Part shown: piece by piece, positions 20,884 through 40,702 of the stretch
Layout of the letters: every line of letters begins with the position of its first letter
Position numbering within the stretch: position 1 is the first letter of the stretch
Assembly: GCF_011759705.1 (NCBI RefSeq)
Contig: NZ_JAAOZF010000001.1
Coordinates: 1,733,152 to 1,797,151, forward strand
Length of the DNA: 64,000 bases
From: Microbacterium ulmi
GTDB lineage: Bacteria; Actinomycetota; Actinomycetes; Actinomycetales; Microbacteriaceae
Reading direction: 5' to 3'
Program-made: the position numbers and the translations under genes
The notes under the pieces: generated by a model
What the model saw: only the letters and a program-made list of their open reading frames with translations
What the model was told of the DNA's origin: nothing
The model's database searches: none

Positions 20884-20974
20884 GGTGACGTGTCCGAGCG
20901 GCCGAAGGTGCAACTCTCGAAAAGTTGTGTAGGGTAACCCCCTACCGTGGGTTCAAATCCCACCGTCACCGCCA
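20884..20974 (+). tRNA. tRNA-Ser (anticodon CGA)
   Basis: The acceptor stem GGTGACG pairs with CGTCACC, followed by discriminator G and an encoded CCA. The anticodon arm CAACT-ctCGAaa-AGTTG gives anticodon CGA (reads UCG, Ser). A long variable arm (GTAGGGTAACCCCCTAC) is typical of serine tRNA. The T arm is GTGGG-TTCAAAT-CCCAC. Its 3-prime end serves as the integration target of the adjacent island. Confidence 0.96.
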
Positions 20975-20976
20975 GA
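20949..20976 (+). repeat. attachment site copy 1 (tRNA-Ser 3-prime end, 28 bp)
   Basis: This 28-bp stretch, beginning GGGTTCAAATCCCACC and running through the tRNA CCA plus two bases, is repeated exactly at 23016-23043. It covers the T arm, acceptor strand and CCA, the usual crossover region of tyrosine-integrase elements that leave the tRNA intact. Confidence 0.88.
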
Positions 20977-23015: not shown

Positions 23016-23043
23016 GGGTTCAAATCCCACCGTCACCGCCAGA
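23016..23043 (+). repeat. attachment site copy 2 (duplicated tRNA-Ser 3-prime end)
   Basis: Identical over 28 bp to 20949-20976. The preceding bases do not form tRNA arms, so this is not a second tRNA but the far att site of an integrated element of 2,067 bp. It overlaps the stop codon of the helicase remnant read on the other strand. Confidence 0.88.
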
Positions 23044-25172
23044 TCGAAGGCCCCGAGATCCCTTGAAAACACTGGAGAGATGGGGCCTTCGTCATGTCCA
23101 GGAGAAGGTGCTGCGGTAACGCAGCAGTAACAGGATTCTGACGACCGTCGGAGTGCCCTGCGGTTTCGAGGACCGCCCACCGGATCGTGAAGACGTGTTC
23201 CCGATGCTCGGTGCCTCCCAGTGCATCCGCGAGCATCCCGATGTACTCATCGGCTTTGCCGCGTAGTCGGTCCCTCTCCTCGCGATAGTCACCGTAGAGA
23301 TCGTCAGCTCGGCGCGAGAGCTTCTGGGCTTCCTTGCGCAGCCTGAGTCGCTCTGTGAGATCGTCGGTTCGGCGTTCGCGAGCGTTGATCTCTTCTCGTG
23401 CTCGTTCGAGCTTGCGCGCTTCGGCGTCGTACTTCGCCTTGTGATCCTTGAGTCGCGACTCAACGAGATCGCCCTGCTCGATGCTGAACTGGGCCGTGCG
23501 AGTCTGTACTTCGCCGGTGAATGCTGCCGCCTGAGCATCGAGGGCCGGCCGAAGTGCCGTTGTGTCGACTGTCGAAGTCGCATTGTTGCCTGCGCAGGCG
23601 AGATCAAGCAGGTGCTCGACTTGCTCCGCATCGAGCACCGCACCATCATCCGTCAGCCCCGTTGCGAGCAAGTAGGACTCGATGATGGTGACATTGCCCG
23701 CGCTGATCTCGAATCTCAACAGATCAACGGTGAGGACGCCGCGACTGCCCCGAAGTGTGCGGGCATCGGCAGCCGCTCGCTCAGAGCCATCGATCGAGAA
23801 GACGAGCTCACGTATGGGCGTGTGCTCGCCGAGTGCTGCTGCGACGACGTACTGGCCGAGATCGCTGTTGTAGCGATATTGGTGCGCGCCGGGAACCGGT
23901 GTCGACTTGAAGAAGTAGCGATCTGTCGGTATGTCTTCTCCCGGGGCACGAAGCAACGTGAATGTGCGCCCGTCTTCGTCGAACTCCGCGAACGCGTCGA
24001 GCTCGTGTCTCGTGACCTGGATCAGCAGCCGCTCGAAGGCGTTGAGAACGACATCCTTCTGCGTGTCGTAGTCCTTGAGCTTGTCTTGAACGTTCGGGTC
24101 GAGGTTGTCGAAGACGCGCGCTCGAGCCTTTTGCATTTCGTCGTTGATCTCAGTGGCGTACTGACTCTCGAGCTCATCGAAGGCGGCGTTGATTTCCGCG
24201 GCGGTCTTGCACCGCTCCAGGATTCCGGCGATCGACCTCTCGAAGTCGAGTCCGTCCTCGATGGTTCCGAGAACTTCGTCGGAGGCGCCGAACACTGAGG
24301 CGAAGAAGTTGAACTTCTCGGTCAGCAACTCGAGGATGCGTTCCTCGGCGAGATTGCCTTGGTTCGAGAAGTTCACGACAGTGACGTTGTGCGCTTGTCC
24401 ATAGCGGTGCACACGGCCGATGCATTGCTCTACGCGCTGTGGGTTCCACGGTAAGTCGTAGTTCACCAGCATGGAGCGGAACTGGTCCTGATAGATCCGC
24501 GTCGACTCGGGCGAATTGTTGCTGCCGTTGAAGAGCACGAGGCCGTCGCCACGCCCGGCCCCACGCAGAGACGCTGCAAGGTACTCCTGCGTCTTCGTCG
24601 AGTCGGTGAAGATGATGGCTTTCTGCGGGGCACCGATCTCTGCGAGCTTGGCGAATCCTTGATCGAGAGCCTCGAGGAGTTTGACCGCCTTCTGGTTGAC
24701 TGTGATCGATCGCGCGAACTCTGCGTAGTCACGCAACTCCTGGACTTCAGCCGCAGCCTCCTGCCGCCGGTTCTCTAGTGCGAGCGAATCTGAGACGCTG
24801 ATCGGCAAGGCATCGGAGGCCTCGATCTCCTCATCGATGAGACCGCCGCGATTGTCACGACGGTGACCCGAACGCAGTTCAGCCTCGAGTCGATTCGCGA
24901 TGCCCTCGAGAGTGGACGCAACCGCGTACGTCGATGAGCCCAGACGCTTGCGGAGAATCAACGCCGAGAGGTGACGTTGTGAACTCGCGAACGCATACAC
25001 CTCCGGTCGCTGCAGATAGGCGTTCATCTTGCTCTGCAGCCGACGGCATGAACTCGAAGGTCATCGCCATGCTTTCGGTGAAGCGGATGTACTTCTGCGC
25101 GTCGCGCCGGAGGGTGCGTTTGGCGATGTGAGATATCCGCATCGCCAGGTCGTCGTTGCTGTAGTCGTCCGG
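23033..25172 (-). pseudogene. SNF2/RapA-like helicase, N-terminally truncated and frameshifted
   Basis: The open part (ATG 25027 to stop 23033, 664 residues) begins inside the helicase. It holds a helicase C-terminal domain with AIIFTDSTKTQEYLA (motif IV region) and LPWNPQRVEQCIGRVHRYGQ (motif VI with Arg fingers), then a long coiled region. The preceding frame (about 25030-25169) encodes SNDDLAMRISHIAKRTLRRD and MTFEFMPSAAEQ, which should read on into NAYLQRPEVYAFASSQRHLS but is in another frame. A stop (25184-25182) ends it upstream. The DEAD-like motor lobe with Walker A/B is absent. Relatives are anti-phage or repair-type SNF2 proteins of about 950-1,000 residues. Confidence 0.82.
23045..23091. 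terminator. Inverted repeat, probable original tRNA-Ser terminator
   Basis: CGAAGGCCCC at 23045-23054 pairs with GGGGCCTTCG at 23082-23091 across a 27-nt loop. Its position immediately after the second att copy suggests it was the native tRNA terminator before insertion. The long loop makes function uncertain. Confidence 0.4.
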
Positions 25173-25177
25173 GCGGG

Positions 25178-25306
25178 ACGATCATCCCGCGCGCGGCGGC
25201 GAGGCGGACGTACGACGACCTGTACGACCTGTACCTCGAGCTGTACGCGGCAACGGCTCCGCTCGTGCACCGGCTCGGCGTGGTGTCCGCAGGGCCGGTC
25301 GCCTGA
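25178..25306 (+). pseudogene. C-terminal fragment of an FGGY-family carbohydrate kinase
   Basis: Only about 42 codons remain, encoding RTYDDLYDLYLELYAATAPL and ending in a normal stop. This is the usual last helix of xylulokinase/ribulokinase-type FGGY kinases. There is no start, no ATP-binding domain and no upstream coding sequence; the fragment begins where the helicase remnant ends. It marks a deletion junction. Confidence 0.7.
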
Positions 25307-25308
25307 CC

Positions 25309-26499
25309 TCACGTCCGCTTCTGGTCCGGGTCGGAACCCGCGGAGATCGCGACGGCCGCCGCGAGGAACCCGGCGGTCAGCCAGAAGACGGAGGCGACGG
25401 CGCCGCCGCCCGAGGTCGCGCCGATGACGAGCGGGATCGTGACCTGAGCCAGGCGGTTCGAGCCCATCCGCAGTCCCATCGCGGCGCCAACCTGCCGTGG
25501 TCGCACGAGCGCGACGATCCACGACATGGTCAGCGGCTGAGGAAGTCCGAGAGTGAGCCCGAGCGCGGCCATGGCGAAGAACGCGCCGACGGTGTCGGCG
25601 AAGGGAAGGAGGATCATCGCGACGGCCCCCGCCGAGAGCGCCAGCACGAGCAGCAGCTTGCGTCCCAGGCGGACCACGCTCCAGCCGAGGCCGACGCGGC
25701 TCGCGACCGAGACCGCGGCGCGCACCGCGAACAGCCACCCGACGATGCCGATTCCGATGCCGTTGGCTTGGGCCCAAGCGGGCACGAAGGCATAGGTGAT
25801 GTCCATCGTGACGAGGACCGCGGCGCTCACGACCAGTGCGCGCCACACCCCCGGCTTGCGCGCGAGCGAGAATCCCTGCATCAGCGACTCCGCTCTCTCG
25901 CTCGACGGTCGGGATGACTCGCCGCGGGGAAGGCGCAGGTGCCACGACGGGATGATCGCCCCGATCACCCACACCAGCGTCGCGAGCAGACCGACCGCGT
26001 TCTGATCCGCGACGGAGACACCGAGGGTCGCTGCCAGGACCGCGACCCCGGCGATCAGAGGAGGTCCGACGAGCTGCCCGGCAGACGCGGCCGTCGCGAG
26101 GATGCCGAAGTCGTTGTCGGAGCGCCCCGGGGGTGTGCGCTGTGCGACGAGAGTCTGCTGGGCGATGGATGCCGCGATGTGCCCGAGCCCGGCAAGGACG
26201 GACGCGATCGCGAGCACGAGGCGCGTCGGAGCGCCGACCGCGAGAACGATGCCCGTCGCGAACACGGAGCTGCCGATCGCGGTCACGGCGTTCGCGCTGA
26301 AACGAGACAGCAGGTGGCCGATCGGTACGGCCGCGAGAAGGCCGGGGAGGGCGAACGTCGTCGCCATGAGGCCGAGGAAGAGCGCGTCGTTGCCGAACTC
26401 GAGGGCCTTGTAGCCGAACATCACCCGGACGCCGGCATACCCCCCTTGCAGAGCGAAGGCCTGGATCGAGATGGCCATTCGCCAGGGCCGGGGAGTCAT
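25309..26499 (-). CDS. MFS transporter
   Basis: This 396-residue protein has about 12 hydrophobic helices, from MAISIQAFALQGGYAGVRVM to FWLTAGFLAAAVAISAG, with the cytoplasmic central loop LRLPRGESSRPSSERAES. It is a major facilitator. Its ATG overlaps the stop of the upstream hotdog gene by 4 bp, making it the last gene of a seven-gene operon headed by a LacI regulator. It probably moves the substrate or an intermediate of that pathway. The substrate and direction cannot be read. Confidence 0.88.
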   Translation of the reverse strand: MTPRPWRMAISIQAFALQGGYAGVRVMFGYKALEFGNDALFLGLMATTFALPGLLAAVPIGHLLSRFSANAVTAIGSSVFATGIVLAVGAPTRLVLAIASVLAGLGHIAASIAQQTLVAQRTPPGRSDNDFGILATAASAGQLVGPPLIAGVAVLAATLGVSVADQNAVGLLATLVWVIGAIIPSWHLRLPRGESSRPSSERAESLMQGFSLARKPGVWRALVVSAAVLVTMDITYAFVPAWAQANGIGIGIVGWLFAVRAAVSVASRVGLGWSVVRLGRKLLLVLALSAGAVAMILLPFADTVGAFFAMAALGLTLGLPQPLTMSWIVALVRPRQVGAAMGLRMGSNRLAQVTIPLVIGATSGGGAVASVFWLTAGFLAAAVAISAGSDPDQKRT

Positions 26500-26930
26500 G
26501 ACAGGTCGTCACGCGCTCCGGCGAACACGACGACGGCGGTCCCACGCACTGTCGGCTCGCCGGCAGCGTTCTCGGTCGTGAGGGCGATCTCCACTTCTGC
26601 GCTGTCTCCATCCATGACGACGGATGTGACCTCGGCGCGACACAGCAGCGGTTGATCGGGGTAGTCGGGGCGCAGATACCGCACCGAGAAGCGCCGGATG
26701 ACTCCGTCAGGGGCAGCCCACTCCGACACCAGGCTTCCGAGATAGCCGGCCTTCAGCATGCCGTGAACGAGCACTGCGTCGAAACCTCGTGACTTCGCAT
26801 AGCTCTCGTCGTAGTGGAGCGGAGCGAAGTCTTGAGATGCGGACGCGTAGCGCACGAGGTCTTCTCGCGACGGCGTCACGGCTGCCGGTTCGATCCGATC
26901 CCCGACGCGGACGACCCTGGCGGCTGTCAT
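26496..26930 (-). CDS. MaoC-like (hotdog) hydratase subunit
   Basis: This 144-residue protein is a single hotdog domain with the R-hydratase catalytic motif: Asp and His in YASASQDFAPLHYDESYAKS, then GFDAVLVHGML. Proteins of this size pair with a non-catalytic hotdog partner to form a heterodimeric enoyl-CoA hydratase able to take bulky substrates. The partner is the next gene upstream (4-bp overlap). In context it hydrates an enoyl-CoA intermediate. Confidence 0.85.
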   Translation of the reverse strand: MTAARVVRVGDRIEPAAVTPSREDLVRYASASQDFAPLHYDESYAKSRGFDAVLVHGMLKAGYLGSLVSEWAAPDGVIRRFSVRYLRPDYPDQPLLCRAEVTSVVMDGDSAEVEIALTTENAAGEPTVRGTAVVVFAGARDDLS

Positions 26931-27418
26931 GGTGCGCTCCCAGGGATCCGGAAGGTCAGCACGTGACCCGCGCGGACGCGCGCCACCACGGCTGTGCCGT
27001 CATAGATCGTGGTCTCTCGCACCCGAAAGAGCAGGATCCCCGAGCTTCCCCGCTTCTCGTAGATGTCGGACGGACGATACTCGACCCGGACCGGCACTCC
27101 GATGGGCACCGGCCGAAGCAGCTCGACCTCGGTGAACGCGTTTCCGCCTCCGACGGCTGGGGAGGAGATCATCGCGAGGACGCCATCGTCGGGGAGATCC
27201 TTCCGTTCGAACGGATCCATCGTGCCCGCCAGTATCGGCGGCTGCAGCAGTTCGGGCCCGTGAGCGGCTTCGATGTTCGGCCGCACTGCGACGGCCGTCC
27301 GAAGCCGCCGCAGCTCCTGTTCCGTGATCGTGTACGTAAACGAGTGCCGGTTCTGTTCGGAGAGGTACTGCGCGCGTATCCGGGGCGTCAGGATGCCGAG
27401 TCCGACGCTCTCATTCAC
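26927..27418 (-). CDS. FAS1-like / MaoC N-terminal-type hotdog partner subunit
   Basis: This 163-residue protein is of the MaoC N-terminal (FAS1-like dehydratase) type, with GPELLQPPILAGTMDPFERK and a long beta strand FTEVELLRPVPIGVPVRVEY. The Asp-His catalytic pair is absent, as expected for the substrate-binding partner of a heterodimeric hydratase. It overlaps both neighbouring hotdog genes by 4 bp and is the first of two such catalytic/non-catalytic pairs. Confidence 0.78.
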   Translation of the reverse strand: MNESVGLGILTPRIRAQYLSEQNRHSFTYTITEQELRRLRTAVAVRPNIEAAHGPELLQPPILAGTMDPFERKDLPDDGVLAMISSPAVGGGNAFTEVELLRPVPIGVPVRVEYRPSDIYEKRGSSGILLFRVRETTIYDGTAVVARVRAGHVLTFRIPGSAP

Positions 27419-27837
27419 GGTGTCCCTCCCGCCACGCGCCGGAGGGTGCCGGTTCCGCTCACGGTCACGAGGCCGTCACTGTTCGCGACATCGAACCGCA
27501 CCTCCACGGTGCCGGCCTCCGGGTCGGCGGCATCGATCGTCGCAGTGAGCCGGAGCGTGTCGCCGACGTAGTCGGGCGCGCGATACCGGCAGGCCAGACG
27601 CACCAGCTTCCACTGCGCTCCCGATGCCATCGCCAGCTGCGCGGCGACCCATGCACCCTTGAGCGGGCCATGCACGACGGGAGCGGAGAATCCCCGAGCC
27701 CGCGCCGCGGCGCCGTCGTAATGGAAGTCGACCTCGTCCCGCGTGGCCGTGCCCCAGCCGACGAGCCAGTCGACGGTCGTGGCATCCGTCGTGACGATCG
27801 CGATCTGCGCGCCGACAGTGGCCTCGGCGCGGTTCAT
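27415..27837 (-). CDS. MaoC-like (hotdog) hydratase subunit, second pair
   Basis: This 140-residue protein starts at ATG 27837, which overlaps the upstream stop by 4 bp. The catalytic motif is TRDEVDFHYDGAAARARGF, keeping the Asp-x4-His spacing but replacing the usual Asn-Pro between them, then PVVHGPLKGAW. It is paralogous to the downstream 144-residue subunit. Two different pairs suggest two successive hydration steps or two substrates. Confidence 0.82.
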   Translation of the reverse strand: MNRAEATVGAQIAIVTTDATTVDWLVGWGTATRDEVDFHYDGAAARARGFSAPVVHGPLKGAWVAAQLAMASGAQWKLVRLACRYRAPDYVGDTLRLTATIDAADPEAGTVEVRFDVANSDGLVTVSGTGTLRRVAGGTP

Positions 27838-28304
27838 TCGGAGCCCCGATAGCTGATGCTGGTTCCCCGGGCCACGCCGATCCGCACGCCCTCCGGTGCC
27901 GTCGCCGTGATCTCGAACACCGTGAACAGCATCGGTCCTGTTCGAGCGGAGCCGGGCTTCGCGCTGACTCCGGCGACGAGTCCGTCGAGGCGGACGACCG
28001 TGCCGAGCCGCGGGGAGGTGAACATCTCCCACTCGGTGCCGCCATCGATCGTGCTGTCGAACGGGCGCGGCCGGGGCAGACCCATGCGAGCGGCGATGAT
28101 GATCGGGTCGGGGAAGAGGAAGCTGAGCGGCACATCGTCGTCGCTGAGGGAGGCGGGAGTGCGGGTCTGGGGGTCGACGGCGCGCATGAACTCGAGGACT
28201 CGAGCGCTCGTCACGTCGACGAACTCCGGTCGACCCGTCGTGCCGACCAGACCGCCGAACTGCTGCAGCAGATTGGCGGTCGTGATGGATGAGGCGCTCG
28301 TCAT
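27834..28304 (-). CDS. FAS1-like hotdog partner subunit, second pair
   Basis: This 156-residue protein lacks the hydratase Asp-His motif. Recognisable elements are PLSFLFPDPIIIAARMGLP and the beta hairpin GGTEWEMFTSPRLGTVVRL, typical of the MaoC-family dehydratase N-terminal domain. It sits 9 bp after the DHDPS-like gene and overlaps the next gene by 4 bp. It probably forms a heterodimer with the 140-residue MaoC protein. Confidence 0.75.
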   Translation of the reverse strand: MTSASSITTANLLQQFGGLVGTTGRPEFVDVTSARVLEFMRAVDPQTRTPASLSDDDVPLSFLFPDPIIIAARMGLPRPRPFDSTIDGGTEWEMFTSPRLGTVVRLDGLVAGVSAKPGSARTGPMLFTVFEITATAPEGVRIGVARGTSISYRGSE

Positions 28305-28313
28305 TGGGCGTCT

Positions 28314-29270
28314 CTACGCTCGCGATGACGACTTCGGCGCGGCGACGGCGATGTTCGACGCGGCCAGCGCGGCCCGCACCTCCTGGAAGTCCTCCTCCGT
28401 GATCGGGTCGATCGGCGGACGCACGAGATAGTTGTCGAGAGCGCCGACGGCGTAGAGCGCGGCCTTCAGCAGGCCGTGCGCGTGACCGCCCACCACTCCG
28501 CTGCCGTAGATCGCGGTGATGATGGGCTCGATGGAGGCCTCGATCTCTCGCGCGGTCGCCAGGTCGCCGCGCTCCACCGCGTCGTACATGGCGGCGACCT
28601 CGTCGGGCAGGAGAGACCCGACGGCGACGAGAGCGCCGTCGACGCCTTGGATCATGGTGCCCAGGAGCGCCTCGTCATGGCACGTGAGGATCGTGGTGGT
28701 CGGCTCCGCCGCACGCACTGCACGGATGTTGGCAGAGTATGCAGCCAGGTCGCGTGTTCCGGCCTTGATCGCCACAACGCGGGGGATCCGAGCGAAGCTG
28801 GCCAGCTCGTTGGCGCCGTACTGGGCTCGCGTGTCGTGCGGGTACTCGTGGATGATCAGGTCGAGGTCGACGCCGTCGGCGATGCTCGACACGTAGCGGA
28901 TCGACTCGGCGTCCGTCTTGCCGAACCTCAGCCAGTGGTGTGGAGGCATCACCAGCAGTCCGTCCACGCCAGTGGCCTCCAGCTGGCGAGCGACTTCGAG
29001 AGCGGGGGCGACACCTTCTGCGAACAGGGCGGCGACGACGGGGACTCGCCCGGCGACATGATCGACGCAGGTTCGAGCGAGCTCCACGATCTCACCGGCG
29101 GTGAGGTTCGTGACCTCCCCGGCGTGTGCACCGCAGACGACGCCGGCGACGGAGTCATGGGTGAGCAGCCAGTCGAGGTACCGCTCTAGTGCGGCTACGT
29201 CGAGCTCGAGCCCCGCCGTGAAGGGAGTCGGAATGGCTGCGTAGACTCCACGCCAATACACTTTTGCCAC
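28314..29270 (-). CDS. Dihydrodipicolinate synthase/N-acetylneuraminate lyase family aldolase
   Basis: The protein is 318 residues from GTG 29270, with AAAGG eight bases upstream. It is a TIM-barrel class I aldolase: VYAAIPTPF near the N-terminus, the substrate-binding GVVCGAHAGEVTNL in place of the usual G-T-T-G-E, Tyr in IIHEYPHDTRAQYG and Schiff-base Lys in RVVAIKAGT. The altered GTTGE motif argues against true DapA. Set between a LacI regulator and hydratases, it likely cleaves or joins a pyruvate-containing intermediate. Confidence 0.85.
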   Translation of the reverse strand: MAKVYWRGVYAAIPTPFTAGLELDVAALERYLDWLLTHDSVAGVVCGAHAGEVTNLTAGEIVELARTCVDHVAGRVPVVAALFAEGVAPALEVARQLEATGVDGLLVMPPHHWLRFGKTDAESIRYVSSIADGVDLDLIIHEYPHDTRAQYGANELASFARIPRVVAIKAGTRDLAAYSANIRAVRAAEPTTTILTCHDEALLGTMIQGVDGALVAVGSLLPDEVAAMYDAVERGDLATAREIEASIEPIITAIYGSGVVGGHAHGLLKAALYAVGALDNYLVRPPIDPITEEDFQEVRAALAASNIAVAAPKSSSRA

Positions 29271-29319
29271 TTCATGCCTTTCTGGTTGACCGAGACGTCC
29301 GCGCGAACCCGGACGCACG

Positions 29320-30381
29320 CTAAGGGGCCGCGGGCGCAACGGCGAGCGTGCCGCCGTCGACGAACGCGGGAACGAAGTGCGGCGCCTCGAACGGCAGCTC
29401 GGGATCGGACTCCGAGAGCACATACGACACCGCAGCTCTGCCTGCCTCCGCGAGCTTGACGTCGACGGTGGTGAGGGCGGGCGAGTTGAGGGACGCGTAC
29501 AGCGTGTTTCCGATACCGACCACCGACACCTCGCGAGGCACGTCCCGACCGAGCTGGACCAGACGCTTTGCGACGCCCAGTGCAAGCGGGTCGCTCGTGC
29601 CGACGATGGCGGTGGTGCGTGGCTCCTGCTGAAGCACGGCCTCGGCGCCGAGCTTGCCCGCTTCGACGGAGGACTCGGTGTCGACGATCACCGGTGCCAC
29701 CCCCGCACGGGCCAGCGCGCCGGCGAGGCCGGCAACTCTCTCGCGATATGTCAGGTTCCGTGCCTCGCCGCCGACGACGCCGATTCGGCGGTGACCCAGC
29801 GCGAGGAGCCGCTCGGCGATGAGGACACCCACCGCCGCGTTGTCGACGGAGATCGTGGGGATCGCGGACTCGCGAGGGGCGAGGGCGACGACGGCTGTGC
29901 CGCTTCGCTGGATCTGGTCGATCAGCCGACCGAATGTGACCAGGTGCGCGCGGTCTCCCGAAGAGCCGGATGCCAGGATCAGCCCGCTCACGCGATGCTC
30001 CCAGAGGCTCCGCGCGAGCTGGATCTCGAGGTCCTGATCGCGCTGCATGTTGCTCACGATGGCGACCATCGATCGTGCGTTGGCCTCCATCGTGACCGCC
30101 TCTGCGATCTCGCCGAAGTAGGGGTTGAGCATGTCGCCCACGATCAGCCCGACGCTCATGAGGCGTCCGCGGCGAAGCCCTTGCGCCATCGCGTTGGGGG
30201 CGTAGCCGATGGTCCGCGCGGCGCGCTCGACGCGCTCGACCAACTCGGGGCTCACCCGGATCGCATCCTTGCGAACGACCCTCGCGGCTGTGCTCACGGA
30301 GACACCCGCCAGTCGTGCTACATCGCTCACCGACGGCGGTCGCGAGTCTTGTGCTCCCTTGCCCAACTCGACCACTTTCAC
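29320..30381 (-). CDS. LacI-family transcriptional regulator
   Basis: This 353-residue protein starts at GTG 30381. The N-terminal LacI helix-turn-helix PSVSDVARLAGVSVSTAARV and hinge helix IGYAPNAMAQGLRRGR are complete. The periplasmic-binding-like effector domain runs from VGLIVGDMLNPYFGEIAEAV to the C-terminus. It is the first gene of a seven-gene minus operon and faces the ABC-transporter operon. Matching palindromes lie over both promoters (see regulatory entries), so it likely represses both directions until a pathway ligand binds. Confidence 0.93.
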   Translation of the reverse strand: MKVVELGKGAQDSRPPSVSDVARLAGVSVSTAARVVRKDAIRVSPELVERVERAARTIGYAPNAMAQGLRRGRLMSVGLIVGDMLNPYFGEIAEAVTMEANARSMVAIVSNMQRDQDLEIQLARSLWEHRVSGLILASGSSGDRAHLVTFGRLIDQIQRSGTAVVALAPRESAIPTISVDNAAVGVLIAERLLALGHRRIGVVGGEARNLTYRERVAGLAGALARAGVAPVIVDTESSVEAGKLGAEAVLQQEPRTTAIVGTSDPLALGVAKRLVQLGRDVPREVSVVGIGNTLYASLNSPALTTVDVKLAEAGRAAVSYVLSESDPELPFEAPHFVPAFVDGGTLAVAPAAP

Positions 30382-30420
30382 TCATGCCGAGCCGCGCGGC
30401 GCAAGGCCGGCGGCAGATGC

Positions 30421-30456
30421 TGAGAACGATATCACATGCAGGACTGGCCACGTCAA
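30421..30456 (-). promoter_or_regulatory. Promoter and LacI-type operator of the lacI-aldolase-hotdog operon
   Basis: On the minus strand, -35 TTGACG (30456-30451) is followed by 16 bp and -10 TGATAT (30434-30429). The -10 lies within TGATATCGTTCTCA (30434-30421), a 14-bp near-palindrome of form TGA-n-A-n-CG-n-T-n-TCA with the central CG typical of LacI-family operators. It lies 40 bp before the regulator start, so autorepression is likely. Confidence 0.75.
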
Positions 30457-30652
30457 GGAGTCGAAACCAGCTTCATCGCTCCGTCCTTCCACAATGTCGA
30501 TGGCATGCCAGTGATGCGATCGAAGGCATAGAAGTCCTGATAGAAGCCGAAACCCTCGTAGCTGAAGCGTGACGTCCTATCTTCTTGTCGCTCACGGCAA
30601 CAGCCCGTCGCACTCGAACACCACCTCTGCGCGCCGTGACGAATTCGAAAGC

Positions 30653-30680
30653 TTGACATCGTTCTCAGAGTGAGTAATGC
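30653..30680 (+). promoter_or_regulatory. Promoter and LacI-type operator of the ABC-transporter operon
   Basis: -35 TTGACA (30653-30658), 16-bp spacer, weak -10 TAATGC (30675-30680). The operator TGACATCGTTCTCA at 30654-30667 overlaps the -35 and differs at one position from the site at 30421-30434. The same regulator therefore probably controls both divergent operons. The rest of the 370-bp intergenic region holds no gene I can support. Confidence 0.72.
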
Positions 30681-30751
30681 TTGCTCCGCGTCGCCAGGAC
30701 GCAGACGCGACACCAATGACGGATCGCGTTGGCCACCAATGGAGGTACCGG

Positions 30752-31768
30752 ATGTCGCCAGCCGCGACTGCTCACTCGGCCGGATCGCCGCTTCTGGAGA
30801 TCACGGACCTGCGAGTGAGCTTCCGGACGTCGGCCGGCCGCGTCAACGCGGTCAACGGACTGAACCTGACCGTCCGCAGGCGTGAGCGGGTCGGCATCGT
30901 CGGGGAGTCGGGATCGGGCAAGTCGGTCACGGTGCAAGCGCTGCTGGGGCTGCTCGACGAGAACGCCGTGGTCACGGGCAAGGCGGAGTTCGACGGCCTC
31001 GATCTCCTGCGGGCCACTCCGAAGCAGATGCGCGAGATCCGGGGAAAGGGGATCGGCTACATCTTCCAGGATCCGCTGTCCGCGCTCGACCCCGTCCGCA
31101 CGATCGGCGAGCAGGTGACCGAAGCGCTGCGAATCCGTGGCGTGGGCAGCCGCGAAGCATCCCGTCGTTCGATCGACATGCTCGGACGGGTCGGGCTGAA
31201 AGAGCCCGCGCGGCGGATGGAGGACTACCCTCATGAGCTGTCCGGCGGGATGCGCCAGCGGGTCATGATCGCGATGGCGCTTGTCGCCGAACCTCAGCTC
31301 GTGATCGCGGACGAGCCCACGACGGCACTCGACGTGCGCATCCAGGCGAAGGTCCTCGACCTCCTGTGGGAGCTCGCGGAGGAGCGGGAGCTCGCCGTGA
31401 TCTTCGTGACGCACGACCTCGGCGTGCTTGCGGGGTTCGCGGAGGGCGTGACGGTCATGTACTCGGGTCGGGTCATGGAGCAGTGCTCCGTCGACGACAT
31501 GTTCGCCCACTCCGTGCACCCCTACACGCTCGGGCTCCTCGATTCGGTGCCCCGGATCACCGGCCCGGTCCCCGATCGGCTCATCACGATCGGCGGGCGC
31601 CCCCCCGCGCCGCAGGAACGGATCGCCGGCTGCCCGTTCCACCCCCGCTGTCGGTTCCGGATCGACGAGTGCGCCACCGTACTGCCCGAGGCGACCATCG
31701 TCGGCACTCATGTCTCGGCCTGCCATCGTGCGGGCTGGCTCAACGAGCGGACGGGGAGCCTGGCATGA
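30752..31768 (+). CDS. Opp/Dpp-type ABC transporter ATPase (DppD/OppD-like)
   Basis: The protein is 338 residues from ATG 30752, with GGAGGT six bases upstream; longer in-frame starts precede that ribosome site and were rejected. Walker A is GESGSGKS, the Q-loop YIFQDPLSALDP, the signature LSGGMRQR, and Walker B LVIADEPTTALD. The C-terminal Cys-rich oligopeptide-transporter motif GCPFHPRCRFRIDEC, which can bind an iron-sulfur cluster in relatives, is present. It pairs with the next ATPase, the lipoprotein and two permeases of this operon. Confidence 0.95.
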   Translation: MSPAATAHSAGSPLLEITDLRVSFRTSAGRVNAVNGLNLTVRRRERVGIVGESGSGKSVTVQALLGLLDENAVVTGKAEFDGLDLLRATPKQMREIRGKGIGYIFQDPLSALDPVRTIGEQVTEALRIRGVGSREASRRSIDMLGRVGLKEPARRMEDYPHELSGGMRQRVMIAMALVAEPQLVIADEPTTALDVRIQAKVLDLLWELAEERELAVIFVTHDLGVLAGFAEGVTVMYSGRVMEQCSVDDMFAHSVHPYTLGLLDSVPRITGPVPDRLITIGGRPPAPQERIAGCPFHPRCRFRIDECATVLPEATIVGTHVSACHRAGWLNERTGSLA

Positions 31769-32754
31769 CCGAACCGCTCCTCCGCGTCCGCTCCCTGACG
31801 AAGGTCTTTCGCACAGGGACTCGCGCATCGCATCGCGCCGTCGATGACGTCTCCTTCGACCTCTACACAGGCGAGACGCTGGGGCTGGTCGGAGAGTCGG
31901 GCTCAGGAAAGTCCACGACCGCTCGTTGCATCATGCGACTCATCAAGCCGACGAGCGGTGAAGTGACGCTGGACGGCGTCGACGTTCTCGGAGCGAGCCG
32001 CCGGGAGCTTCGTGACGTCCGGCGCGGAGTGCAGATGGTCTTCCAGGACCCTTACTCGTCGCTGGATCCTCGCATGAAGGTCCGCGACATCGTCGCCGAG
32101 GGGATGCGGATCAACCGGATCGCGGCGTCCGCGGCCGAGGAGCGAGCTCGCGTGGCCGAGCTGCTCGAACTCGTCGGTCTGCGACCGGACCACCTGGACC
32201 GCCGGCCTGCGAGCTTCTCGGGCGGGGAACGACAGCGGATCGGGATTGCTCGGGCCCTCGCCGTCAACCCGCGCCTGCTGATCTGCGACGAGCCGATCGC
32301 CTCGCTGGACGTGTCGATCCAGGCGCAGGTGCTGAACCTCTTCACCGATCTCCGGCGCGAGCTCGGTCTGTCGATCCTGTTCATCGCGCACGACCTCGCG
32401 ACCGTCCGGTTCCTCTGCGATCGGATCGCGGTCATGGAGAACGGACGGCTCGTCGAGATCGGCGATCGCTCCGAGATCTACGGCGACCCGCAGCATCCGT
32501 ACACGCGCGCTCTCATCGACGCCGCCCCCGAGCCGAGTCCCGAGCACGAGCGAGCCAAGCGGGAAGACAGACTGCGCCGGCGGCGCAACGGCGACGAGGC
32601 GGCCGCCGAGGCCTCGGGACCTGCAGAGGTGGCGGCGCCGGCGAGCGAGATGGACCAACCCGGCGCGCACAGCACTGCGCACACGACGACGACGCAGCAA
32701 AGCAGCAGGCCACCGGCAGTCACATGGCTCCGGTCGATCAAGGAAAGGCAGTGA
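31765..32754 (+). CDS. Opp/Dpp-type ABC transporter ATPase (DppF/OppF-like)
   Basis: This 329-residue protein overlaps the previous gene by 4 bp. Walker A is GESGSGKSTTARC, the Q-loop MVFQDPYSSLDPRM, the signature FSGGERQR, and Walker B LLICDEPIASLD. The last 65 residues form an Arg/Ala/Thr-rich, low-complexity tail (ERAKREDRLRRRRNGDE onward) that replaces the usual Cys motif and is longer than typical. The function is ATP hydrolysis for import with its partner ATPase. Confidence 0.94.
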   Translation: MTEPLLRVRSLTKVFRTGTRASHRAVDDVSFDLYTGETLGLVGESGSGKSTTARCIMRLIKPTSGEVTLDGVDVLGASRRELRDVRRGVQMVFQDPYSSLDPRMKVRDIVAEGMRINRIAASAAEERARVAELLELVGLRPDHLDRRPASFSGGERQRIGIARALAVNPRLLICDEPIASLDVSIQAQVLNLFTDLRRELGLSILFIAHDLATVRFLCDRIAVMENGRLVEIGDRSEIYGDPQHPYTRALIDAAPEPSPEHERAKREDRLRRRRNGDEAAAEASGPAEVAAPASEMDQPGAHSTAHTTTTQQSSRPPAVTWLRSIKERQ

Positions 32755-32756
32755 CG

Positions 32757-34343
32757 ATGGACTCAACACCTGGACTCGCAAGAGTCCGGCGCCGGGCCAG
32801 GGGACTCACGGCGATCGTCGGAGTCGCCGCGATGCTCGCGCTGGCAGCCTGTACGCCGCAACCCCCCACGACGGAAGACGGTGGCACGTCGATCACGATC
32901 GCGCTGCCGACCGAACCGCGGACCCTGGCAAGCTGGCTCAGTTACGCGAACGACGGTCACCCGGTGCTGCGCAACATGCTCGAGGCTCTCGTGAACCGGG
33001 ATCCAGAGACGCACGAGCTCGTCGGTGAGCTCGCTACTTCCTGGGAGAAGGTCGACGACCTGACGTGGAACTTCACCCTTCGCGAGGGCGTCACGTTCCA
33101 CGACGGGACCGACTTCAACGCAGAGGCCGCAGCCGCGGGGCTGAACTTCGTGGTCGACCCCGACAACGCCTTCCTCGTCCGCGTCTACGTCGGCCCGGAG
33201 ATCACGGCGCGCGCCGTCGACGAATACACGCTGGAGGTGAAGACGGCGGCTCCCGACCCGATCCTCCCCGACCGCATGTTCTTCTTCACGATCCCCTCGA
33301 TGGCCGCGGTCGACGCCGATCCCGATGGATATGCCCGCAATCCCGTCGGAACCGGTCCCTACAAGTTCGTCGACTATCAGCCCGGTCAGCAGATCCATGC
33401 GACCGCGTTCGAGGACTGGTGGGGCCGCCGCGCGCCCGAAGACGCGCACGGGTCCAACGAGGCGATCAAGGACGTGACGTTCGTCTTCCGTCCGGAGTCG
33501 GAGGTCCGATCGGCGATGATCCAGTCGGGTGAGGCGGACATCGCGCGGTGGCTCACGAGCGAGCAGTGCGAGCTCGCTCCGCAGTGCGAGAGCACGCCGA
33601 CCGTCGAGACCCTGGTCGTTCGCATGGACATGGTCAACCCCGTGCTCAGCGACATCCGCATCCGCCAGGCGATCTCCCTGTCGTTCGACAAGGACCAGAT
33701 CCTCAACGGCATCATCGGGGGCGGCGAGCCGTCGCCGATGGTGATCGGGCCGACGGTGCTGGGGTTCAACGACTCGCTCGAGCCGTATCCGTACGACCCC
33801 GACGAGGCGAAGAGGCTCGTCGCCGAGGCCAAGGCAGACGGCGTCCCGGTCGACTCGACCCAGCTCTACGTGATCGCCCGCGCCGACCTGGTCCCTCGCG
33901 CCGACGAGGTGATCCAGCTCATCGGCGAGTCCCTCACCGCGATCGGGCTCAATGTCCGCAGCGAGGTCGTCGAGACGGCCACGTTCGAGGAGCAGTGGCA
34001 GGTCGGATACGACAACATCCCGCCCGAGCGGGGTCTCATCGGTCTCAACAGCCACGGCAACGAGCTCGGCGACTTCTCGTTGAGCGTGTTCAGCCTTTAC
34101 CAGTGCGCGTCCACGCGATCGGCGTTCTGCGACCAGGACGTCGAGAAGGAGGCCGCTGCGGCATCGCAGCTGAGCGGCGATGAGCGGGATGCCGCATACC
34201 AGGCCCTCGGCGCGTACTTCTACGAGCAGGTCCCGGTCGTGCCGATCGGTCAGCAGGCCTTCCACTTCGGGCTGTCGGACCGAGTGGACTGGTCCCCCCG
34301 CCAGGACGGTCTGATCCTGATCAAGGAGATCGGCATCAAGTGA
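32757..34343 (+). CDS. Opp/Dpp-type extracellular solute-binding lipoprotein
   Basis: The protein is 528 residues from ATG 32757; GTG 32751 is an alternative start. The signal peptide with lipobox LALAAC anchors it to the outer face of the membrane. The SBP family 5 fold is clear from TWNFTLREGVTFHDGTDFNA and NPVGTGPYKFVDYQPGQQ. Family members bind peptides, but catabolic relatives bind nickel, opines, glutathione or hydrophobic carboxylates. The surrounding enzymes suggest a small organic acid or amide rather than peptides. Confidence 0.94.
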   Translation: MDSTPGLARVRRRARGLTAIVGVAAMLALAACTPQPPTTEDGGTSITIALPTEPRTLASWLSYANDGHPVLRNMLEALVNRDPETHELVGELATSWEKVDDLTWNFTLREGVTFHDGTDFNAEAAAAGLNFVVDPDNAFLVRVYVGPEITARAVDEYTLEVKTAAPDPILPDRMFFFTIPSMAAVDADPDGYARNPVGTGPYKFVDYQPGQQIHATAFEDWWGRRAPEDAHGSNEAIKDVTFVFRPESEVRSAMIQSGEADIARWLTSEQCELAPQCESTPTVETLVVRMDMVNPVLSDIRIRQAISLSFDKDQILNGIIGGGEPSPMVIGPTVLGFNDSLEPYPYDPDEAKRLVAEAKADGVPVDSTQLYVIARADLVPRADEVIQLIGESLTAIGLNVRSEVVETATFEEQWQVGYDNIPPERGLIGLNSHGNELGDFSLSVFSLYQCASTRSAFCDQDVEKEAAAASQLSGDERDAAYQALGAYFYEQVPVVPIGQQAFHFGLSDRVDWSPRQDGLILIKEIGIK

Positions 34344-34435
34344 CGTTGTCGCGACGCGGGGTCGAGCCGGTCCCGCGTCGCGTCGGCACGCAGTACAAGC
34401 AGTCCCGGATCCATCTGGAAGGAACAAGATACGAA

Positions 34436-35218
34436 ATGCCTACCTCTGAAGTCGTGATCGTCACCGGCGGTGCCGGTGGAATCGGCCTTGCCACTGCCAA
34501 GAAGCTCGTGAGCCGCGGAGCGAAGGTCGGGATCGTCGACCTGGACCCCGACGCCGTCGCGCGGGCGGCGGCGGATGTCTCTCCCGACGGATCGGTGGCG
34601 ATCGCGGTTCCCGCTGACACCACCGACGAAGCCGCCATGACCGAGGCGGTCGCGGCCACGGAGACGAGGTTCGGGAGCATCACGGGCCTCGTGACCTCGG
34701 CCGCGATCCGGCAGACCTCGGCCAGCTTCCTCGACCTCGACCTCGAGCTGTGGGACCGCGTTCAGCACATCAACGTCGCGGGTACCTTCATAGCCGCGCG
34801 AGTAGCCGCGCGAGCGATGATCGCCTCGGAGACGCCAGGCGGGATCGTCACGATCTCGTCGGTCGCGGGGATCATGACCCGCATGGGCCTCTCGGCCTAC
34901 TGCACGAGCAAGGCCGCCGTGATCCAGCTCAGCAAAGTGCTCGCCCTCGAGCTCGCGCAGCACCAGATCAGGGTCAACGTCGTCTGTCCGGCGGTGACGC
35001 AGACCCCGATGCTCAAGCGCGCGATGCGCGATGAGGGGGATCAGCTCTTCGACGTCAAGGTCGCAGGCTCCCTCGAGGCATTCCGTCCGGGGATTCCGCT
35101 GCGTCGCGCGTCGCAGCCCGAGGAGCAGGCCGCCGCGATCGCCTTCCTGCTGTCTCCCGAAGCCTCTTTCATCACGGGTGCGGTCCTGTCCGTCGACGGT
35201 GGTGCGGCAATTGTCTGA
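34436..35218 (+). CDS. SDR-family oxidoreductase (first of a tandem pair)
   Basis: This 260-residue classical SDR has TGGAGGIGLA as nucleotide-binding motif, SSVAG near the active-site Ser, YCTSK as Tyr-x3-Lys and a C-terminal SFITGAVLSVDGG. An Asp after the second beta strand (IVDLDPD) favours NAD over NADP. It is followed by a paralogue sharing the rare FLDLDLELW/FLDLDLDTW segment. It probably oxidises a 3-hydroxyacyl or alcohol intermediate. Confidence 0.9.
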   Translation: MPTSEVVIVTGGAGGIGLATAKKLVSRGAKVGIVDLDPDAVARAAADVSPDGSVAIAVPADTTDEAAMTEAVAATETRFGSITGLVTSAAIRQTSASFLDLDLELWDRVQHINVAGTFIAARVAARAMIASETPGGIVTISSVAGIMTRMGLSAYCTSKAAVIQLSKVLALELAQHQIRVNVVCPAVTQTPMLKRAMRDEGDQLFDVKVAGSLEAFRPGIPLRRASQPEEQAAAIAFLLSPEASFITGAVLSVDGGAAIV

Positions 35219-36026
35219 ATCGGACATCGACGCAGACGGGCTGGGCCTGTCGGGACGGACAGTGGTCGTCACCGGCGGTGCGAGCGGCATCGGCCTGGCG
35301 ACCGTGAAGCGACTGCTCGCTGCCGGGGCGAACGTCGGTGTCGTAGACCTCGTCCCGGAAGGGATCGAGGACGCGCTCGACGAGGTCGATCCCCGCAGGG
35401 AGCGCACGATCGGGGCGGCGAGCGACACGACGGATGAGGCGGCCATGACCGTCGCCGTCGACACGGTCGTCGCCCGATTCGGAGCGCTCGACGGGCTCGT
35501 CACCGCGGCGGGCGTGCGCCAGACGCCGATCAGCTTCCTCGACCTCGACCTCGACACCTGGGCGACCGTGCAGCGTGTGCTCGTCAAGGGGACGCTGATC
35601 GCCGTGCGCATCGCCGCTCGCGTGATGATCGCGGGCGGTCGGGGCGGATCGATCGTCACGATCGCGTCCGTGACCGGGCTGATGCCGCGCGTACGGCTCG
35701 CGGCATACTGCAGCAGCAAGGCGGGCGTCATCCATCTCACCAAGGTGGTCGCCCTGGAGCTCGCGCGTCACGACATCCGCGCGAATGTCCTCGCCCCGGC
35801 ACTGACGCTCACTCCCCGCATCGATCGGGCTGTCGCCCTCGAGGGCGACCACATCCTGGGGGACAAGATCCTGGGCAACCTCTCGGAGTTCCGACCCGGC
35901 ATCCCCCTCGGACGTGCCGGGCGAGCGGAGGAGCAGGCGAACGCGATCGTGTCTCTGCTGTCGCCGACGGCGTCGTTCACGACGGGCGCGGTGCTGTCGG
36001 TGGATGGAGGCGTGAATGTCGTCTGA
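35202..36026 (+). CDS. SDR-family oxidoreductase (second of a tandem pair)
   Basis: About 274 residues from GTG 35202; GTG 35199 and TTG 35211 are also possible. The gene overlaps the first SDR by roughly 17 bp. Motifs are TGGASGIGLA, YCSSK and SFTTGAVLSVDGG. It is a recent-looking paralogue of the preceding gene, with matching SDTTDEAAMT and FRPGIPL segments. The pair may form a heteromer or handle two stereoisomers; both ideas are inferences. Confidence 0.88.
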   Translation: MRQLSESDIDADGLGLSGRTVVVTGGASGIGLATVKRLLAAGANVGVVDLVPEGIEDALDEVDPRRERTIGAASDTTDEAAMTVAVDTVVARFGALDGLVTAAGVRQTPISFLDLDLDTWATVQRVLVKGTLIAVRIAARVMIAGGRGGSIVTIASVTGLMPRVRLAAYCSSKAGVIHLTKVVALELARHDIRANVLAPALTLTPRIDRAVALEGDHILGDKILGNLSEFRPGIPLGRAGRAEEQANAIVSLLSPTASFTTGAVLSVDGGVNVV

Positions 36027-37251
36027 ACGCCCGGACGGCTCGGCGCGGCGCGGCGTCCTCGACGGGGTGAGGATCGTCGACTTCACCGAGCGTATGCAGG
36101 GCCCCTATGCGACCCAGATGCTCGGCGACCTCGGCGCCGACATCGTCAAGGTGGAACGGCTCGTCGCCCTCGCCCCGGACGGGAGCATCGACGTGCGCTA
36201 TCCGGAGGGCAACCCGTCTCTCTATTCGTCCATGTTCCTCGCCGCCAATCGCAACAAGCGCAGCATCGCCGTCGATCTGAAGTCGGAGGCGGGGAAGGAC
36301 GTCGCCCGTCGGCTGATCGCCGCCGCCGACGTCGTCTACGAGAACTTCCGGCCGGGCGTCATGGATCGGCTCGGCTTCGGGTACGAGGACTGCCGCAGGC
36401 TGAACCCCGGCATCATCTACGCGTCCGCCTCGGGATACGGGCCGGACGGTCCCTACGAGGCCAGGCCGGGTCAGGACCTGCTCATCCAGGCCATCGCGGG
36501 ACTCGGCGCGATGAACGTGTCGGCGACGGGTCGTCCGACCGCGGTCGGCATGTCGATCAGCGATCTGCTCGGGGGGATGAACGGCGCGTTTGCGGTGCTG
36601 GCGGCACTGCTGCACCGCGAACGGACAGGGGAGGGGCAGCGCGTGGAGGTGTCGTTGCTGGACAGCGCCGTCGCGGTCCTCTCCGAGCACGCCGTGCACT
36701 TCATGAACAGCGACATCGGCGAGCCCGAACGCGGCACGCCCATGCACGCCCACGCCTACATCCCGCCGCCGTATGGCTTCTATGCGACCTCGGACGGCTA
36801 CATCGCGCTCTCGAGCGGCCGACAGATCGCGCTGATCTCCGAGGTGCTCGGAATCCCCGACCTCACGAAGGACCCACGATTCGCGTCGTACGCGCTCCGC
36901 GACGAGAACCGCGCGGAGATGGAAGAGATCATCGAGTCGCGAATGCGCGAACGCACGACAGCCGAATGGCTCGAAGAGATGGTTCCGCGCGACATCTTCG
37001 CAGCACCCGTCCACACGCTCCGGGAGGCGTTCTCCGATCCTCAGGTGCTGCACAACGGCATCGTCCGCGACGTGCAGGGTCCTCACGGCCCGGTCAGGCT
37101 CGTGGGTCCGCCGTACCGGCTGAGCGCATCGCCGGCGGACGTGCGCATTCCGCCTCCCGAGCACGGTGCGCATACGCAGGAGATCCTCCGCGATCTCGGC
37201 TTGACGGACCACGAGATCGCGGCACTGCGCGACCAGGAGGCAGTCGCATGA
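36016..37251 (+). CDS. CaiB/BaiF-family (class III) CoA-transferase
   Basis: The protein is 411 residues from ATG 36016 and overlaps the SDR by 11 bp. The class III CoA-transferase fold is seen in LDGVRIVDFTERMQGPYATQ, GADIVKVE and NRNKRSIAVDLKSEAGK, with the catalytic Asp expected in RPGQDLLIQAIAGL. It moves CoA from a donor such as succinyl-CoA to the imported carboxylate. Its place between SDRs and the permeases suggests import and activation are co-ordinated. Confidence 0.92.
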   Translation: MSSERPDGSARRGVLDGVRIVDFTERMQGPYATQMLGDLGADIVKVERLVALAPDGSIDVRYPEGNPSLYSSMFLAANRNKRSIAVDLKSEAGKDVARRLIAAADVVYENFRPGVMDRLGFGYEDCRRLNPGIIYASASGYGPDGPYEARPGQDLLIQAIAGLGAMNVSATGRPTAVGMSISDLLGGMNGAFAVLAALLHRERTGEGQRVEVSLLDSAVAVLSEHAVHFMNSDIGEPERGTPMHAHAYIPPPYGFYATSDGYIALSSGRQIALISEVLGIPDLTKDPRFASYALRDENRAEMEEIIESRMRERTTAEWLEEMVPRDIFAAPVHTLREAFSDPQVLHNGIVRDVQGPHGPVRLVGPPYRLSASPADVRIPPPEHGAHTQEILRDLGLTDHEIAALRDQEAVA

Positions 37252-38159
37252 CGAGCGCAAAGACCGCGAGGGCGTTCCGGCGACTGAGCCGGGGCCTGGT
37301 GTTCAAGATCGCGGTGGTCGCCTTGGCGGCGGTGGTGTTCAGCGCCGTGTTCGTCCAGGCGATCATGCCGTTCGATCCGTACCTCAGCAACGTCGCGGCG
37401 AGGAACCTGCCGCCTCTGACCCCCTCGGACACCTGGCTGCCCTACCTGCTGGGCACGGACCCGCTCGGACGGGACCTGCTGACGAGGATCATGCTCGGCG
37501 GCAGGGTGTCGCTCATGGTCGGCGTCGCGAGCGTGCTCGTCTCGGGAACGATCGGTGTCACGATGGGACTCCTGGCCGGCTACTTCCGGGGCTGGGCCGA
37601 CCAGGTGATCATGCGCCTCGTCGACATCCAGATGAGCATCCCGTCGCTTCTCATCGCGCTCCTCGTGCTCTACGTGCTCGGCCCCAGCATGCTCAACGTG
37701 ATCTTCGTCCTGGCGATCACGAGGTGGATGGTCTACGCACGCGTCACACGCAGCCTCGTGCTCTCGCTGCGGACGGAGCTGTTCGTCGAGGCCTCGCGGT
37801 CGCTCGGGGCGTCCCACCTGCGAACCCTCGCACAACACATCGTGCCCAATCTGGCTGGCCCCGTGATGATCCTCGCGACCCTCGAGGTCGCCGTCGTCCT
37901 GCTGTCGGAGGCGTCGCTGAGCTTCCTGGGCTTGGGCATCCAGCCGCCCGACACGTCGTGGGGTCTCCTACTGGCGCAGGGGAGCGAGTACATCACGGCG
38001 GCCTGGTGGCTCGTGGCCTTCCCGGGCCTCGCGATCCTCGTCACGACTCTGAGCATCAACCTCATCGCGAGCTCGATCCGAGCCCGCTCGGGCCGGGACG
38101 ACATCGGGTGGGAGGACCTCGAGCTCGCCCCGGACCTCGACGGGGCAGTCCGCCGATGA
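37248..38159 (+). CDS. ABC transporter permease (DppC/OppC-like)
   Basis: This 303-residue protein overlaps the CoA-transferase by 4 bp. It has the DppC layout: one N-terminal helix (FKIAVVALAAVVFSAVFVQA), a short external domain containing YLLGTDPLGRDLLTRIMLGG, then five helices with the EAA loop EASRSLGASHLRTLAQHIVP. It forms the translocation pore with the next gene product. Confidence 0.94.
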   Translation: MTSAKTARAFRRLSRGLVFKIAVVALAAVVFSAVFVQAIMPFDPYLSNVAARNLPPLTPSDTWLPYLLGTDPLGRDLLTRIMLGGRVSLMVGVASVLVSGTIGVTMGLLAGYFRGWADQVIMRLVDIQMSIPSLLIALLVLYVLGPSMLNVIFVLAITRWMVYARVTRSLVLSLRTELFVEASRSLGASHLRTLAQHIVPNLAGPVMILATLEVAVVLLSEASLSFLGLGIQPPDTSWGLLLAQGSEYITAAWWLVAFPGLAILVTTLSINLIASSIRARSGRDDIGWEDLELAPDLDGAVRR

Positions 38160-39082
38160 TCCTGAGATATGCACTGCGGCGACTGGCCTACTCGGCGCTC
38201 GTCCTGATCGGCGTGCTCGTCGTCGTCTTCGTCGTCGTCGACCAAATCGGCGACCCGGCACGCCTCATGCTTCCCCCGAACGCTCCCGAGTCGGTCTATC
38301 TGGCGCTGCGCGAGTCGCTGGGCCTCGACGACCCGCTGTGGGAGCGCTTCGTGCGGTCGGTGGGCGGGTGGCTCCACGGAGACTTCGGCGACTCGACGTG
38401 GCAAGGGGTGCCCGCGCTGCAGCTCGTCCTCGAGCGCCTGCCCGCGACCCTGCTGCTGGCGGCCATCGCGCTCGCCGTCTCGCTCACGGGCGCCCTCGTG
38501 CTCGGCCTGGCGTCCGCTCGTCGCCCGGGGTCGCTCGTCGACCGGCTGCTCACGGTGATCTCGCTCGCGGGCGTCTCGATCGCCGAGTTCTGGCTGGGCC
38601 TCATGCTGATCCTCTTCTTCGCCGTGCAGCTGCGATGGCTGCCGACCTCCGGGTTCAACGGGCTGCAGTATGCGATCCTCCCCGCGATCGCGCTGTCGTT
38701 CCGGCCACTGGGACGGATCTCGCAGATCGCGAGATCGTCGCTCGTCGAGGAGATGCGCAAGCCCTACATCAAGGCGCTGCGGGCGAAGGGCCTGACCGAG
38801 AACCGCATCCTGCGCCGGAGCGCCCTCAAGAACGCGGGGATCCCGATCGTCACGCTGGCGGGAGACGAGCTTGCCTCGTTCCTCAACGGAGCCGTCGTGA
38901 TCGAGGTGATCTTCGCGTGGCCCGGCATCGGGAGCCTCTTCATCCAGGCGATCGAGCGCCGGGATCTGCCCCTCATCGAAGCCTGCGTCTTCGCCGTCTC
39001 GGTCATGGTGATCGCCGTGAACTTCGCCGTCGACCTCATCTATGCACGGCTCGACCCGCGCGCCGTCGTCTACAAGAGCTAG
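38156..39082 (+). CDS. ABC transporter permease (DppB/OppB-like)
   Basis: This 308-residue protein overlaps the DppC gene by 4 bp. The N-terminal helix LAYSALVLIGVLVVVFVVV is followed by the family motif ESLGLDDPLWERFVRSVGGW, and the EAA loop KALRAKGLTENRILRRSALK. The C before B order and the separation of permeases from the ATPases by three enzyme genes are unusual. Confidence 0.94.
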   Translation: MILRYALRRLAYSALVLIGVLVVVFVVVDQIGDPARLMLPPNAPESVYLALRESLGLDDPLWERFVRSVGGWLHGDFGDSTWQGVPALQLVLERLPATLLLAAIALAVSLTGALVLGLASARRPGSLVDRLLTVISLAGVSIAEFWLGLMLILFFAVQLRWLPTSGFNGLQYAILPAIALSFRPLGRISQIARSSLVEEMRKPYIKALRAKGLTENRILRRSALKNAGIPIVTLAGDELASFLNGAVVIEVIFAWPGIGSLFIQAIERRDLPLIEACVFAVSVMVIAVNFAVDLIYARLDPRAVVYKS

Positions 39083-39091
39083 CCGCCCGTC

Positions 39092-40519: not shown

Positions 40520-40702
40520 GGCGCCGACCGGAGCCATCGTCGCCGCCACGCGAGCCCGCCCCCTGTCGGCCGCGTCGGGGTGCGTGCGCTTGCGACCGGC
40601 TTGAGTTGCTGCGTGAAGGTGATGTAAGCCGGCGGCTTTTGTCCGCTCGGCCCACTCGCCCTCCTCTGCGCGACCTCGGTCATCGCGACCCCCCGCCGGG
40701 GT

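Follow-up and report, generated by a model that had tools for sequence, protein, structure and literature searches.

In the lac system of E. coli, a LacI-family repressor acts at an imperfectly symmetric operator that overlaps the promoter, and the paired control of a divergent repressor gene and an operon is a common bacterial design. For the LacI family at large, the portion of the work by Ravcheev et al. (2014, PMC4052901) drawn on here gives CG-centred motifs for 1173 of 1303 regulators and autoregulation for 72% of the regulators studied, and places more than 75% of the catalogued sites in the stretch from 30 to 140 bp ahead of start codons. Our analysis of a 64-kb window of the Microbacterium ulmi genome (the whole stretch of 64,000 nucleotides, to which positions refer unless a contig or locus is named) points to an arrangement of this type, in which a gene for a LacI-family regulator and an operon for an ABC transporter diverge from a 370-bp intergenic region and nearly the same operator-like sequence stands at the likely promoter of each. 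Judged from its sequence, the locus is probably an ordinary, local and autoregulated LacI-type divergon of a known kind.

The first of the two sites, TGATATCGTTCTCA (operator 1; 30421-30434, minus strand), covers what is presumed to be the -10/start region of the lacI operon, whereas the second, TGACATCGTTCTCA (operator 2; 30654-30667, plus strand), overlaps the -35 box (TTGACA) and the spacer of the transporter operon; both 14-mers stand where the initial annotation had placed them and differ, as it had said, at one base. The match with this single mismatch extends to 15 bp (CTGAGAACGATRTCA), and the two sites share their orientation relative to the transcription of the gene that each precedes: along transcription, the imperfect arm TGAYATC comes first and the other arm, GTTCTCA, second. 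Both have a CG centre and fit all eight fixed letters of the LacI operator form TGNNANCGNTNNCA. The LacI-type symmetry attributed to them holds for the central CG, but each site pairs at only 5 of 7 positions; if the good arm is completed to a perfect palindrome, the result is TGAGAACGTTCTCA, from which each operator is two mismatches away. The operator centres are 233 bp apart, or 22.2 turns at 10.5 bp, a figure that says nothing for or against DNA looping.

The promoter boxes described with a 16-bp spacer at each site are literally present and their -35 elements are good, but the -10 elements are weak. On the lacI side, the -35-like TTGACG (30451-30456, minus strand; 5/6) is followed at 16 bp by the -10-like TGATAT (30429-30434, minus strand; 3/6), or at 19 bp by the alternative TATCGT (30426-30431, minus strand; 4/6). 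On the side of the transporter operon, the -35-like TTGACA (30653-30658, plus strand; 6/6) is followed by a weak -10 region at 30675-30681 on the plus strand, read either as TAATGC (16-bp spacer, 2/6) or as AATGCT (17-bp spacer, 3/6). Spacers other than 16 bp therefore give -10 boxes one letter better on both strands, and a strict sigma-70 scan of the intergenic gap returned no promoter. Measured from the two assigned start codons, the operator centres are about 46 and 92 bp upstream, distances that fall in the range of 30-140 bp given in the part of PMC4052901 considered here.

The initial annotation had set its reading against the case of a 14-mer equally frequent at random genome positions; a scan of the 3.51-Mb genome instead finds TGAYATCGTTCTCA at exactly two places, both of them the operators described here, and it occurs in none of 97 other genomes (98 searched, including its own). 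When up to two mismatches are allowed, the genome contains 18 places, namely operators 1 and 2 and 16 others. Fifteen of these 16 were inspected, and 12 of the 15 lie wholly inside coding-like frames, as called by a rough rule on G+C by codon position, two (C1:85208 and C1:2058324) start within the stop codon that closes such a frame, and one (C2:542246) falls in a non-coding stretch; the sixteenth is in the window itself, inside the frame 23033-25027. The one-mismatch place C1:2106734 is within a 226-aa frame that we take to encode a thioredoxin/DsbA-like protein. None of these 16 nearest other genome matches is a convincing further member of the regulon. An operator-like site thus precedes the regulator gene and the neighbouring operon and is found at few or no places elsewhere, and the regulon appears to be local.

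The general form TGNNANCGNTNNCA is not over-represented in the genome (25 places, against 48 for a reversed control pattern), and its relation to LacI-type genes was assessed with operators 1 and 2 left out and the 18 LacI HTH genes of the genome as reference. Of the 23 other sites, nine have such a gene within 5 kb, against a random mean of 1.1 and a value reached by none of 20,000 placements, but this figure flatters, as three of these distances, at 4957-4991 bp, are only just below the limit, and two of those three sites are 34 bp apart and thus not independent. Within 2 kb there are four of the 23 (0.45 at random; reached by 13 of 20,000 placements) and within 1 kb two (0.22 at random; reached by 429 of 20,000). 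The palindrome TGAGAACGTTCTCA, with up to three mismatches, has 86 places in the genome as opposed to 16 for its reversed control. Perfect or near-perfect palindromes of the TGCAAGCGCTTGCA type are also repeated in this genome (G000:C1:632595, C1:632710, C1:1452506 and G000:C2:739012), possibly as operators of another LacI-family regulator.

The regulator gene itself (29320-30381, minus strand; start codon uncertain) encodes a protein of 353 aa with the HTH sequence SVSDVARLAGVSVSTAARVV. It carries a LacI HTH domain at the N-terminus (PF00356; 49.2 bits against a Pfam cut-off of 27) and a periplasmic-binding-protein-like effector domain (PF13377, 92.4 bits, cut-off 26.5; PF00532, 82.6 bits, cut-off 22.2), and the solved structure closest by sequence is 1rzr, the 'Glucose-resistance amylase regulator' (CcpA), at an E value of 1e-32. 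All 17 NCBIfam matches listed, to named LacI groups such as RbsR, CytR, CcpA, PurR and others, are under the cut-off, the best being the RbsR model at 164.7 versus 382, and from these domain matches the protein is an uncharacterised regulator of the LacI/GalR family. With five candidates scored per genome among the matches listed, searches for an orthologue were negative in 365 other genomes of the genus (366 with its own; threshold E 1e-60) and in 395 other genomes sampled from the order (396 with its own; threshold 1e-55), the latter including some members of the genus. A search of genome contigs for relatives yielded only two, at 28-29% identity, and the 15 plasmid matches listed of 3958 have 32-35%. 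The recognition-helix residues VSVSTAAR are found in none of the other 17 LacI HTH sequences of the genome.

On the minus strand, the regulator gene is followed by a lyase or aldolase of the DHDPS/NAL family (28314-29258; upstream end as given by the Pfam match, with an uncertain start codon), a 156-aa protein with no Pfam match (27834-28304) but with similar proteins in the clusters of two congeners, G369 and G320, a MaoC-like hydratase (frame 27415-28032, of which the gene is probably the 3' part; Pfam 26.5, just below the cut-off of 27), a 163-aa protein with no Pfam match (26927-27418), a second MaoC-like hydratase (26496-26930) and an MFS transporter (25309-26499). A PDB search with the 163-aa protein gave no match, and its counterpart in G320 lies within a frame that matches FAS1_DH_region there. 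On the plus strand, two oligopeptide-type ABC ATPases (30752-31768, starting with an ATG after GGAGG, and 31765-32754) are followed by a family 5 solute-binding protein (32724-34343, longest frame), two short-chain dehydrogenases (34340-35218, longest frame; 35031-36026, longest frame with the true start probably inside), a family III CoA-transferase (36016-37251), ABC permeases of the DppC type (37248-38159) and DppB type (37724-39082, longest frame, again with the true start probably inside), and an FAD_binding_2 dehydrogenase of the fumarate-reductase/ketosteroid-dehydrogenase superfamily (39092-40519). Seven genes on the minus strand, lacI included, and nine on the plus strand make 16, rather than the 15 first proposed. 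From its tight packing each side probably forms one operon; a terminator scan of 24900-41600 found no terminator-like site anywhere in that range, so that the operon ends are unmarked by the scan. The enzymes suggest a CoA-dependent breakdown of an organic acid or a similar compound.

Elsewhere in the window, a 28-bp direct repeat (20949-20976 and 23016-23043, about 2 kb apart) copies the 3' end of tRNA-Ser(cga) at 20884-20974, and the pair looks like the attachment sites that flank a small element inserted at a tRNA. The frames searched between the repeats had no Pfam or PADLOC match and thus no integrase was recognised there. The minus strand also carries a G+C-poorer frame of 664 aa (23033-25027) that resembles the C-terminal part of DrmD/SNF2-type helicases (DISARM-like defence) and apparently is without the N-terminal part.

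Because near-identical sequences of repressor type stand at both likely promoters, one protein probably controls both. Its gene count aside, the initial annotation finds good support in the sequence for its proposal of a single LacI-type repressor at both promoters, through the paired and unique sites, the adjacent LacI gene, the placement of the sites and the association of the motif with LacI genes in the genome. We put at roughly 80% the probability that the protein encoded at 29320-30381 binds both operators as a dimer, represses transcription in both directions and is released by a metabolite. A LacI dimer would recognise both near-identical predicted operators; at 30421-30434 it would cover the -10/start region of its own seven-gene operon, leading to autorepression, whereas at 30654-30667 it would cover the -35 box and spacer of the nine-gene ABC-transporter/CoA-transferase operon and repress it. 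A metabolite of the imported compound would then release LacI, and uptake and breakdown would be switched on together.

It is conceivable that the pair arose by chance, as two similar promoter fragments of an AT-richer stretch that resemble LacI operators. The region of the two sites is indeed AT-richer than its surroundings, and a pair of 14-mers of any kind within one mismatch appeared in 9 of 300 shuffles of the intergenic region. However, when the LacI form is taken into account, dinucleotide shuffling of the 370-bp intergenic region, repeated 20,000 times, gave at least one TGNNANCGNTNNCA site in 189 cases, at least two in a single case, and two within one mismatch of each other in none. 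Across the 64-kb window the form occurs at two places, both of them operators 1 and 2 (0.51 expected), and at least two places were seen in 8 of 100 whole-window shuffles. Together with the absence of the 14-mer from the 97 other genomes, the shuffles of the intergenic region make coincidence scarcely credible. A regulator other than the adjacent one might also own the sites, either a different one among the genome's 18 LacI-family proteins or a member of another family, as regulators can act in trans; yet the 14-mer is confined to this locus, and no other LacI HTH sequence of the genome shares the VSVSTAAR residues of the neighbouring protein, which makes such an assignment very improbable.

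A different possibility is that LacI acts in practice on one side only, for example at the autoregulatory site, the other site being a decoy or the low-affinity remnant of a duplication. The one-base difference between the sites, and the imperfect symmetry that both show in the same arm, are as a duplication would give. On the other hand, the flanks beyond 15 bp are without a match between the sites, so no large recent duplication is seen, the distance of each site to the start codon assigned to its own gene is typical, and each overlaps a good -35 box or a -10 region; we consider one-sided action unlikely.

Related catabolic clusters were found in the genus. At E 1e-110, the CoA-transferase has matches in G369 and G320 only among the other 365 genomes of the genus, two in each; at E 1e-125 there were none in the other 380 of 381 genomes of the phylum, and the 12 plasmid matches listed of 1229 have about 41-42% identity. 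In a comparison that left out the first ATPase, the FAD dehydrogenases of the G369 and G320 clusters are 60 and 58% identical to that of the present locus, both permeases, the CoA-transferase (two copies each), the short-chain dehydrogenase, the solute-binding protein and the second ATPase are at 47-66%, and the lyase, 156-aa, 163-aa and MaoC proteins at 31-40%. Both clusters also have a LacI gene inside; it is not an evident orthologue of the one described here, with 28-30% identity and a recognition helix reading VAPASVTRV, and several other LacI proteins of the M. ulmi genome are as close (best 34.8%). The clusters further differ in gene order, in an Iso_dh-family gene in G369 and in RraA-like genes beside both.

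They differ as well in a repeated element, TGAAAACGGTACCGAAAG, present in two gaps of each cluster. Stretches of 40 kb from G369 and G320 each contain exactly two mismatch-free copies of its form TGAAAACGGTACCGAA, one in the divergent gap between the fad and lyase genes and the other in the gap ahead of the 156-aa/MaoC genes, whereas the window has no copy of TGAAAACGGTACCGAAAG (16-mer) or TGAAAACGGTACCGAA within three mismatches. Read on the other strand, CGGTACCGTTTTC, a part of TGAAAACGGTACCGAAAG, is conserved at L015:7263, L015:10899, L018:7916 and L018:11538, in two gaps per congener cluster. Since the element departs from the canonical CG-centred form, it is only a putative target of the LacI proteins of the congeners. 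A conserved sequence, GCGRTATCGTTTCC, directly precedes the LacI gene of the congeners (at about 9710-9730 in L015 and at the corresponding place in L018), and its G369 copy has GATATCGTT in common with operator 1 of the window. By this comparison, G369 and G320 perhaps share the two-promoter layout but use a different pair of regulator and operator. A further, tentative possibility, which we consider less probable than its opposite, is that related catabolic clusters of one genus each rely on a LacI switch at two promoters, in which a non-orthologous LacI and all of its operators (TGAYATCGTTCTCA versus TGAAAACGGTACCGAAAG) were exchanged together, the layout being kept.

From a practical point of view, the analysis provides a specific candidate operator for an uncharacterised LacI regulator. 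At the locus an importer of the Opp/Dpp type is linked to a pathway with a CoA-transferase, hydratases and a lyase, whose substrate could thus come to light in a de-repressed strain or in a screen for inducers. Set beside the two congeners, the locus could offer a small natural experiment on the co-replacement of regulator and operator; apart from that, it would be a routine local regulon of low general interest. A literature search, judged by title, returned no paper on a LacI/MaoC/CoA-transferase gene cluster of this kind in Microbacterium, and the string TGAGAACGTTCTCA was not found in the literature searched.

As far as the portion of PMC4052901 considered here describes them, local autoregulated LacI regulons share with the present locus a regulator with a LacI HTH and a periplasmic-binding-like sensor domain, a CG-centred operator of even length 30-140 bp upstream of start codons, a site before the regulator gene, and catabolic target genes. 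Relative to that description, the present locus differs in that its targets would be an Opp/Dpp-type importer and a CoA-dependent acid breakdown rather than a plain sugar operon, and in that its exact operator, TGAYATCGTTCTCA, is found at this locus only. With E. coli lac it has in common an imperfectly symmetric operator-like site over the promoter and a LacI-family regulator, but two likely divergent promoters are arranged here with one candidate operator each, 233 bp apart from centre to centre.
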